This document shows, in pieces, positions 3,136-15,292 of a stretch of 64,000 nucleotides of DNA. The stretch comes from an uncultured Latescibacterota bacterium (lineage in GTDB: Bacteria; Latescibacterota; UBA2968). Location: positions 1,473,339-1,537,338 of the forward strand of contig OX638329.1 of assembly GCA_951812755.1 (NCBI GenBank), written 5' to 3'. The position numbers were made by a program, and so were the translations under genes. Within the stretch, counting starts at the first letter, position 1. Every line of letters begins with the position of its first letter. Under the pieces are notes generated by a model. The model did not search any database, had not been told where the DNA came from, and saw only the letters and a list, made by a program, of their open reading frames with translations.

Positions 3136-3178
3136 ACGCTCATGATAATTAAAAATTGAAAATTAAAAATTAAAAATT

Positions 3179-3332
3179 GATGTTACGCATAGGCACAATA
3201 TAATGAGCCTGTCATTTTGAGCGGAGCGCAGCGGAGTCGAAAAATCTTCTACTGACGCAGGTGGAACAGATGCTTCGGCTCCGTTTCACTCCGCTCAGCA
3301 TGACAAAAACACCAGACCTGCGTAATATTAAT
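3179..3332. repeat. Dispersed palindromic repeat, copy A
   Basis: An intergenic repeat, starting TGATGTTACGCAT and ending near CTGCGTAATATTA (imperfect inverted ends). Inside are inverted arms TGTCATTTTGAGCGGAGCG and CTCCGCTCAGCATGACA. Related copies lie at 5385, 7908, 15109 and 51413. It has no coding capacity and is preceded by AT-rich AATTAAAAATT tandem sequence. Confidence 0.8.
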
Positions 3333-4238: not shown

Positions 4239-5312
4239 ATGGACTTACACAAATTATTCACAGATGTATTTCATCCCGAACCCGATGAAACAATAGCCGT
4301 CATTGCCGATGTGCCGCACGGTGAACTGCGCGATAGCGAGACCTGGCGCGAGCGCAGAGAAATGGCCGCCGAATGGCGTGCGGCCTGGGTATCGCTCGGT
4401 GAACAGATTGGCTTTGACGTCCTGCCTCTCATCACCTTTCCCGCGACCGGTACACACAATGGCAATTTGCCCCTCGACAAAGGCGACCCCATCCCCTTGC
4501 GCGACGGCCTGGCGCGAGCGACAATCGCACTCTCACTCACGCAATTCTCCGCCACGGCACCGCTATCTATGTGGGCGCGTTCACACGATGATTTTCGCGC
4601 GGCGTCATTGCCAGGCGTTGCCCGACGCATGGAAGAAACCGCGCTCTCTGCGGATTATACCGAAGTGGCGCGCCGCTGTCAGATTTTAATGGACTCACTC
4701 TCCGAAGCAGAATACGCACGGGTTATTTTTTCAACCGGCCACAAATGGACGGTTGACCTCCGCTTCCGCGAGGCACACAAAGACGATGGGCAATTGCCCC
4801 GAGAAAAGGCAAACTCGGCCTTTCCCATCATCAACTTGCCGAGTGGGGAAAGTTTCCAGGTACCCTATGAAGGTGAAAGAAAGGGTGAACAGAGTCGCAC
4901 AGAAGGCGAAATACCCGTCAGCGATAACGGCGATGTCATCGTATTTCGGGTCGAGAACAACCGGATAGTAGATGTCGAGGGCAAAACAACACAAGCCGCG
5001 AACTTCAAAGCCTATTTTGACGAAGACCCGATGCGCGGCAACATCGCCGAACTCGCCCTGGGATGTAATCCCAAAGCCGTTGTTTGGGGCAATGTGTTAG
5101 AAGATGAAAAAGCGGGCTTTCACTGGGCTTATGGACGCAGCGAACATCTCGGCGGCACAATTGGGCCAGAACAATTCAAATCCCCCGCACATATTGTTCA
5201 CGAAGACATCGTCTATGCCAAAGACAGCCCGATTCAAGTGGCGTCACTCCTGTTGGTTTCAGCAGACGGGAAAACACGTCAAATCATTCGAGATGGCGCA
5301 TATCTGGTTTGA
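4239..5312 (+). CDS. M29-like aminopeptidase (leucyl aminopeptidase, AmpS/aminopeptidase T type)
   Basis: A 357-residue protein resembling the M29 metallo-aminopeptidases, cytoplasmic two-metal enzymes that remove N-terminal residues. The C-terminal half carries the pattern expected for metal ligands: NIAELALGCNPKA, then FHWAYGRSEHLGG, then AHIVHEDIVY. The N-terminal half is the usual substrate-channel domain (VPHGELRDSETW). Length fits, the family being about 370-410. It begins one base after the isomerase stop and ends 12 bases before the amidohydrolase remnant, so the three were one operon. A small-molecule amidase role rather than peptide trimming is possible given these neighbours. Confidence 0.68.
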   Translation: MDLHKLFTDVFHPEPDETIAVIADVPHGELRDSETWRERREMAAEWRAAWVSLGEQIGFDVLPLITFPATGTHNGNLPLDKGDPIPLRDGLARATIALSLTQFSATAPLSMWARSHDDFRAASLPGVARRMEETALSADYTEVARRCQILMDSLSEAEYARVIFSTGHKWTVDLRFREAHKDDGQLPREKANSAFPIINLPSGESFQVPYEGERKGEQSRTEGEIPVSDNGDVIVFRVENNRIVDVEGKTTQAANFKAYFDEDPMRGNIAELALGCNPKAVVWGNVLEDEKAGFHWAYGRSEHLGGTIGPEQFKSPAHIVHEDIVYAKDSPIQVASLLLVSADGKTRQIIRDGAYLV

Positions 5313-5324
5313 AAGGAGCTTCAC

Positions 5325-5384
5325 ATGTTAATCGACGCGCACAACCATCCGAACTGGCACGGATTCAATGCAGAAAAAATCTTA
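5325..5384 (+). pseudogene. Amidohydrolase (amidohydrolase-2 type), first 20 codons only, cut by repeat element
   Basis: A good AGGAG site and ATG start a frame reading MLIDAHNHPNWHGFNAEKIL. The IDAHNHP motif is the first metal-binding strand of TIM-barrel amidohydrolases (usual form IDAHTHI). Directly after codon 20 the DNA becomes the repeat element at 5385, and no continuation is found beyond the element. The remaining 250 or more codons are missing from this window. Reading on through the element only adds repeat-encoded residues and a stop at 5516. This is a recently broken third gene of the 3425-5312 operon. The missing 3' part may sit beside another copy of the element elsewhere. Confidence 0.72.
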
Positions 5385-5661
5385 GAGACTGTTTTAAAAC
5401 TCGTTTTGCCCCTTCTCGGCGATGCGCTATTGCCCTGTCATTCTGAGCCTTTCGGCTTCGCTCAAGATAAACTCCGCGCAGCGAAGTCGAAGGAGCGGGG
5501 TACAACTGGCCGGTGAACGAGCCTGAAAAGCGGCTCGTTGTACACCATCCTCAGGCCAGTTCATCTAATACTAAAATAGGTGGAAAAGATGCTTCGGCTA
5601 CGCTCAGCATGACAAAACGCCTGACATGCGTAACATCAGGTATTAATTTTAAAACAGCTTC
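5385..5661. mobile_element. MITE-like element, copy B (interrupts amidohydrolase gene)
   Basis: Terminal inverted repeats read GAGACTGTTTTAAAACTC on the left and, as the complement of the right end, GAAGCTGTTTTAAAATT. The core has the TGTCATTCTGAGC arms and an extra hairpin, GGGGTACAACTGGCC, with its partner GGCCAGTTCATCT. Flanks are TTA on the left and TAA on the right, so they do not match each other directly, unlike copy D. It lies at a truncated gene and at a change in strand base skew. It encodes no transposase, so it would move only in trans. Confidence 0.75.
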
Positions 5662-5750
5662 TAAGGGACACTAAGGGACACGAAGAATATGAATAATGTT
5701 TAAGAGAATGCCGCCTCCTTCGTGTTCCTGGTGTTCTTCGTGGATAAACC

Positions 5751-6773
5751 CTAAAGGCGCGTCTGCAATGCATGGATCAGATTATTTGCTGGTTCGCAGG
5801 GTAGTTCTACAGGCCGATGTTCCAGTGCGCTTGTGTAGATTCCCAGAATGATGTTGAAGTCGCGCAAGGCGAGGTCCAGGTTCAGGGGATGGACTTTTGT
5901 GTCGTCTTCAATCCATTGTAGCATGGCATCTGTCATGGCCGCTTGTCCGAGTATGTCTTCGTCAGGGTATTCGTGCGTGCCCCGTTCAATGTGGCCATCG
6001 ATACCTGTTTCCCACGACCACATGGTCCAGTGTACATATCCCCGCGTGCCATAGGCGGCGATCCGCTTGTGAACATTGGTGCGGTCTTCATTTGTTACGC
6101 GGGGGGCATAAGGTCCCGAGATGAGTTGGGCGCGCAGGCCATCGGCATATTCTATCGCTCCGATGCACTGGTCGGGCGCAAAGTGTTTTTTGGGCGTATC
6201 CTCCAGGCCGTCTGTGCCAGAGGCTTGTCCCATTACTTTTATTGGGAGGCCGTCTGGATGAAAGGCGGCAATGGATTGCAAGGCATGCGTGCCTTGATAC
6301 GCCAGGTTCATGCCACAGCTCGCTTCGATAAATCGGATGTCGCCGATTTTTCCTTCCTGTACGATATTTTGCAAATGCTGTCTGCGCGGGTGAAAGTGTA
6401 GCTGGTGATTTATTGCGATTTTGGTTTTCGCGGTTGCCGCAAAGTTTTTGATCGCGCGCCAGTCTTCTCCCTGAATTGCTATGGGTTTTTCCACGAGGAC
6501 AGCGGGTACACCGGCGTCTTCCGCAGCTTCGAATATCTCCAGTCGCACGCTGGGCGGGGTATTTACGTGTACCAGGTCCGGTTGTTCTTTTTCAAACATT
6601 TCCCGATAGTCCAAATACCGCATATCGACGTCAAATGTATTGCCAAATGCGTGCAGACTTTCTGCTGTTCGCGTGGAGATTGCGGCGAGTTTGCCGTGCG
6701 TTACGTGTTGATACGCTTCCGCCAATCCCCGCGCCCGCCCGCCACTTACGCCGATTATTGCACATTTAAGCAT
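5751..6773 (-). CDS. Gfo/Idh/MocA family oxidoreductase
   Basis: A 340-residue member of the Gfo/Idh/MocA dehydrogenases. The N-terminus MLKCAIIGVSGGRARG is a somewhat degenerate Rossmann glycine motif (GVSGGRARG). The signature appears as VEKPIAIQGEDW, followed by NHQLHFHPRRQ, a stretch that lines the active site in this family. The start has a modest AAAGG site. The gene downstream on the same strand is absent because the neighbouring DNA is the repeat element; upstream, 57 bases away, is the alcohol dehydrogenase, probably in one transcript. Likely an NAD(P)-dependent sugar or polyol dehydrogenase; substrate unknown. Confidence 0.85.
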   Translation of the reverse strand: MLKCAIIGVSGGRARGLAEAYQHVTHGKLAAISTRTAESLHAFGNTFDVDMRYLDYREMFEKEQPDLVHVNTPPSVRLEIFEAAEDAGVPAVLVEKPIAIQGEDWRAIKNFAATAKTKIAINHQLHFHPRRQHLQNIVQEGKIGDIRFIEASCGMNLAYQGTHALQSIAAFHPDGLPIKVMGQASGTDGLEDTPKKHFAPDQCIGAIEYADGLRAQLISGPYAPRVTNEDRTNVHKRIAAYGTRGYVHWTMWSWETGIDGHIERGTHEYPDEDILGQAAMTDAMLQWIEDDTKVHPLNLDLALRDFNIILGIYTSALEHRPVELPCEPANNLIHALQTRL

Positions 6774-7850: not shown

Positions 7851-7907
7851 TTTTTACCTCCAAAATAGGGTTGACAAGGGTTCAATTAGGAATTAGGAAT
7901 TAAGAAT

Positions 7908-8083
7908 TGATGTTACGCATCTGCACAATATAATGGGCCTGTCATTTTGAGCGGAGCGCAGCGGAGTCGAAAAATCTATTACTGACGCAGGTGGAACAGA
8001 TGCTTCGGCTCCGTTCCACGGAGTTTATCTTGAGCGAAGTCGAAAGGCTCAGCATGACAAAACCACAGACCTGTGTAACATCA
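7908..8083. repeat. Dispersed palindromic repeat, copy C
   Basis: Starts TGATGTTACGCAT and ends GTGTAACATCA, near-perfect inverted ends. The inner arms TGTCATTTTGAGC and GCTCAGCATGACA are also inverted. A 10-base direct repeat, TTAAGAATTG, abuts the left end and lies two bases outside the right end, a possible target duplication or simply part of the AT-rich spacer. The GAGACTGTTTTAAAA outer ends of copies B and D are absent. Confidence 0.75.
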
Positions 8084-15108: not shown

Positions 15109-15292
15109 GAGACTGTTTTAAAACTCATTTTGCCCCTTCTCAGCTATGCGCTATTGCCCTGTCATTCTGAGCGGAGCGCAGCGGAGTCGAAGAATCTCTT
15201 ACCAACTCAGGTGGAAAAGATGCTTCGGCTACGCTCAGAATGACAAAACGCCGGACATGCGTAACATCAGGTATTAATTTTAAAACAGCTTC
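15109..15292. mobile_element. MITE-like element, copy D (most complete; at the stop codon of the next gene)
   Basis: 184 bases with terminal inverted repeats GAGACTGTTTTAAAACTC and, as complement of the right end, GAAGCTGTTTTAAAATT, flanked by TAA on both sides, the likely 3-base target duplication. The core arms TGTCATTCTGAGCGGAGCG and CTACGCTCAGAATGACA can pair. The stop codon (TAG) of the dehydrogenase gene straddles its right edge, so the insertion sits exactly between two co-directional genes. Confidence 0.8.

Follow-up and report, generated by a model that had tools for sequence, protein, structure and literature searches.

Reciprocal junctions and a skew switch point to a 570-kb chromosomal inversion in an uncultured Latescibacterota bacterium

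The site at which the base skew switches and an amidohydrolase gene breaks off is almost certainly an endpoint of a 570-kb chromosomal inversion (1.4787-2.0497 Mb) relative to the sister species. It lies in the window, i.e. the whole stretch of 64,000 nucleotides analysed here, covering positions 1,473,339-1,537,338 of a 6.53-Mb chromosome that is contained in one contig and is 99.6% complete. The original prediction named an inversion breakpoint as one explanation of the site, and this is now supported at near-base resolution by nine sister species together with a reciprocal far end at 2.0497 Mb. Events of this kind are known, and the present case is unusually clear. The features of both junctions are collected in Table 1.

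Table 1. Features at the two junctions, given as window positions unless marked as chromosome positions.
Feature	Position	Strand	Remarks
M29-type peptidase gene, complete	4239..5312	+	Pfam PF02073, 1.7e-8; 92-94% identical in 9 sister species
Amidohydrolase start, first 20 codons (PF04909)	5325..5384	+	
Left flank of the element, TTA	5382..5384		Native amidohydrolase sequence; G003 and G005 read ATC TTA AAA
MITE-like element copy B, 277 bp, terminal inverted repeats	5385..5661	+	
Right flank of the element, TAA	5662..5664		Differs from left flank
Spacer, 86 bp	5665..5750		
Segment read as inverted, left end	5384..5751		Sister-species adjacencies; skew change point 5,696-5,708
Gfo/Idh/MocA oxidoreductase	5751..6773	-	
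Amidohydrolase, intact, 286 aa	chromosome 2,048,498-2,049,359	-	
Inverted duplicate of the peptidase tail, 231 bp	chromosome about 2,049,480-2,049,715		96% identical to left copy
Segment read as inverted, far end	chromosome 2,049,716-2,049,892		

Nine genomes from the same genus (G001-G007, G009 and G010) were used as the sister-species set. The peptidase relatives with 92-94% identity come from Candidatus Latescibacterota MAGs, of which one carries the label Gemmatimonadota. In all nine genomes the peptidase is directly followed by an intact 286-aa amidohydrolase, and the Gfo/Idh oxidoreductase directly adjoins an epimerase (9/9). In the genome studied here the peptidase is separated by a 12-nt gap from an amidohydrolase that is cut after 20 codons and, as predicted, ends where the element begins. 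The accompanying claim that no remainder follows is true locally and fails for the chromosome, where the whole gene is found 570 kb away from the peptidase, and the Gfo/Idh gene has been parted from the epimerase. Thus, neighbours have been reciprocally exchanged at two sites compared with the relatives, which is the mark of a chromosomal inversion, and we conclude that the segment 1.4787-2.0497 Mb is inverted because both exchanges match the prediction from a single inversion. Sister contigs track this chromosome over 1.405-1.4787 Mb, jump to its position 2.0494 Mb and then descend to 1.97 Mb. G009, which is the nearest relative by identity, shows the sister-species order at each of the two junction sites, and therefore the inversion is derived in the present genome. 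A more distant genome (G008, 79% identity) has no peptidase gene and no Gfo/Idh-epimerase adjacency. Two repeats were seen in passing: a stretch just left of the window (chromosome 1,472,382-1,473,201) matches G010 in many registers and probably consists of tandem repeats, and window positions 3154-3289 and 7884-8019 form a 136-bp repeat pair of 91% identity.

The skew switch itself, predicted at about 5.4-5.7 kb in genes of both directions, was confirmed. GC skew and AT skew are -0.139 and +0.084 in the 40 kb to the left of the site, and +0.132 and -0.132 in the 40 kb to the right. Genes on both strands switch sign here, the GC skew of plus/minus strand genes being -0.074/-0.170 on the left and +0.199/+0.126 on the right. 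A cumulative plot had been proposed as a check, and over the 464 kb analysed it has its AT-skew maximum at window position 5,708 and its GC-skew minimum at 4,840, while the combined GC/AT-skew change point is at 5,696. The skew contrast at the site is the largest among 381 positions in these 464 kb and lies above all block permutations (p = 5e-5). Smooth skew, which would have contradicted the prediction, was found at the homologous left site of the relatives only, where skew is smooth and negative in the four of four that have enough sequence.

Skew changes sign at both ends of the inverted segment, the relatives having been examined at the left one. To the left of the site a tract of opposite polarity reaches back about 290 kb to about 1.18 Mb; to the right, the tract keeps its own polarity until 2.0495 Mb and is followed by opposite polarity until about 2.244 Mb (about 190 kb). 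Weak or mixed stretches occur inside these tracts. Synteny with four relatives breaks at about 1,180,300 and at 2,243,000-2,244,000, coinciding with skew changes. Given the two flanking tracts of opposite skew, there was probably a second inversion outside the first, about 1.06 Mb long, which we infer from skew and synteny breaks and not from matched junctions; in G008, a relative assembled as a single contig, rearrangement is too extensive for the ancestral order of the outer borders to be read. Elsewhere on the chromosome, a 20-kb stretch (900,001-920,000) has an AT skew of -0.333 and a GC content of 0.598, well off the genome average.

At the far junction (2.0484-2.0499 Mb, minus strand) the order is amidohydrolase, about 120 nt of intergenic sequence, the terminal 231 bp of the peptidase gene, an IS fragment of 168 bp and the epimerase, which starts at 2.0499 Mb. 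Full copies of this IS encode a DDE_Tnp_1_4 transposase (PF13701), which we take to be of IS1380 type. The fragment is probably older, since it is only 90% identical to these copies. The original prediction had proposed to look for the missing 3' part of the amidohydrolase next to another copy of the element; it was indeed found at the other breakpoint, but its neighbour there is the IS fragment and not the element. No MITE copy was found in 2.0494-2.0499 Mb, an IS match is absent from the left junction, and the spacer adjoining copy B has no second full match anywhere in the genome. The only sequence shared by the two junctions is the peptidase tail (231 bp) plus the start of the amidohydrolase (60 bp), present in inverted orientation as a short duplicate of about 290 bp.

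The ancestry of this duplicate is discordant. Of 231 sites, 9 differ between the two peptidase tails, and the sister species show both states at every one of them. New mutations would be expected to do so at about 0.8 of nine sites under a uniform model to 1.3 under third-position weighting, and nine matches never occurred in 3,000 simulations. Furthermore, an intergenic insert nearly the same as the one in G009 is present in the right copy and absent from the left copy, as it is from five other species. Consequently, the copies have not simply diverged after one duplication, and judging from these sequences one of them was probably imported or overwritten. On both sides, windows otherwise group mostly with G009; in windowed identity near the far end, the G009 affinity is regained within about 2 kb, a signal that lies within the noise. 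The amidohydrolase tree is poorly resolved. Among the species, two different inserts, each about 100 bp long or longer, segregate at this intergenic spot, five species having the short form.

The element at the left junction has terminal inverted repeats, no coding capacity and a target duplication, as is characteristic of a MITE. In the sequence read there are 43 intact copies, mostly falling into length classes of 184, 219, 253, 255 and 277 bp, and another site of the family lies in the window at about 15109-15292. Four copies have 277 bp, of which one pair is identical; copy B is 98.9% identical to the 277-bp copy at 6,096,846, and most sibling copies of the family are 95-100% identical. 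No element ends were found in 356 kb of the relatives, compared with 28 in 2.05 Mb of this genome; the family therefore seems to have expanded after the split and seems young. The copies at 3,499,451 and 6,222,475 have their terminal repeats swapped with respect to the internal part, which looks as though it had turned round.

The 3-bp TNA flanks match in 36 of the 43 intact copies. The predicted mismatch at copy B was confirmed, TTA being native to the amidohydrolase and TAA falling within the CTAAGGGACA repeat, so that copy B joins two unrelated targets. Such flanks fit a hybrid formed by recombination of two copies, as predicted, or a deletion adjacent to the element. As a sign of recombination the mismatch is nevertheless weak, and we rejected it as proof, because seven of the 43 copies have mismatched flanks. 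Six of these seven differ at the centre base only, which favours copy-to-copy recombination over mutation (binomial about 0.007).

The mechanism that we prefer, with about an even chance of being right, is homologous recombination with an imported block, followed by trimming through the MITE. An extra block of peptidase tail and amidohydrolase would have arrived from another lineage and become attached, by one of its ends, to an IS copy lying between the epimerase and Gfo/Idh, where it could act as an inverted repeat of the native block. Homologous recombination between the imported and the native block would then have turned the segment round, with one intact amidohydrolase remaining at the far end. 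Later, a young MITE would have hit the redundant left amidohydrolase copy, and an element-linked deletion would have trimmed that copy to the stub of 20 codons with mismatched flanks. This mechanism is supported by the reciprocal junctions and the skew changes, by a duplicate that the two ends share in inverted orientation with no MITE at the far one, by the nine differences all being sister-species states with a G009-like insert in the far copy, and by the probably older IS fragment. Against it, the ectopic block as it was before the inversion is seen in no genome, and a left-hand remainder of a second amidohydrolase is missing. The MITE probably came late to the junction, as supported by the young family and the near-identity of copy B to its sibling, and probably did not cause the skew switch, which is carried by the inversion itself and not by copy B. 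The more specific reading, that a fragment from a neighbouring lineage, inverted beside an IS, created the repeat for the 570-kb flip, so that transfer reshaped the architecture with no gene gained, is held only tentatively.

The duplicate of about 290 bp also fits an inversion by staggered breaks with simultaneous duplication (DDAI), and the mismatched flanks also fit MITE recombination, and these routes and the imported-block route are not firmly separated by the data. Under DDAI, one copy would have been replaced afterwards, with the MITE insertion and the deletion coming later still; we regard this sequence of events as rather unlikely. It would account for one breakpoint region being present at both ends as an inverted duplicate (231 bp + 60 bp) and for the junction to the IS without evident homology, and the mechanism is documented in other bacteria. 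The duplicates would be sister sequences of the same event, whereas here all nine differences are polymorphic among sister species and the insert haplotypes differ; a later allelic replacement of one copy is needed and may account for the discordance. The original prediction held that recombination between two copies of the element explains the skew switch, the truncated gene and the mismatched flanks together. That would leave an element at both ends, and a simple inversion of this kind was rejected, as the far junction has none. In a longer version, a copy in the amidohydrolase and one on the Gfo/Idh side would have recombined and inverted the segment, and foreign DNA would later have restored the amidohydrolase and removed the far MITE. 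The element sitting exactly where the amidohydrolase homology ends, the TTA/TAA flanks of copy B and the excess of centre-base mismatches speak for this version, and the later import that it requires makes it doubtful. The restoration would have occurred by homology-facilitated illegitimate recombination, a process that has been described in other bacteria (PMC3240628).

An assembly misjoin or a mixture of strains was also considered, as the breakpoint lies at a repeated element and the sister genomes are MAGs. We judge this very improbable: the chromosome is a single complete contig, there are two reciprocal junctions that have no repeat in common except the duplicate, and skew changes sign exactly at both. 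In particular, the predicted misjoin at the repeat was rejected, as the far junction carries no copy of the element and only the duplicated gene ends are shared. A replication origin at the site would give a sharp change from negative to positive skew like the one seen, and its probability is nevertheless close to nil. The single dnaA match in the chromosome is at 379 kb, near a change of AT-skew sign between 320 and 400 kb, which places the window in mid-replichore; on this ground and by the smooth skew of the sister species at the homologous site, an origin was rejected.

The site thus documents an inversion cleanly and almost to the base in a lineage that is uncultured: both junctions are described, nine sister species give the ancestral state, and the order of events is tentatively reconstructed. 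A skew switch spotted by eye can place an inversion endpoint within a few hundred bases, and a gene that appears truncated at such an endpoint may be intact at the opposite end. A specialist is likely to be interested only in the discordant ancestry of the duplicated ends. If the imported-fragment reading is true, horizontal transfer has reshaped the architecture of a chromosome without bringing in a new gene.

Compared with known systems, the element resembles the IS5/IS1031-like MITEs, to which we presume it belongs by the rule of the 3-bp TNA duplication: it is short and non-coding, and has terminal inverted repeats and mostly matching duplications. DDAI is reported for Helicobacter pylori, Thiomonas and Thermus in PMC8963470, where Furuta 2011 and Arsene-Ploetze 2010 are cited. 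The present case shares with it the inverted copies of one breakpoint region at both ends, and differs in that the copies are not sisters by sequence and that an IS fragment and a MITE are found at the junctions. With inversions by recombination between inverted repeats it has in common the flipped segment, the reciprocal junctions and the change of skew sign at both ends; the repeat, however, is here a gene-end duplicate of discordant ancestry instead of an IS or an rRNA operon.
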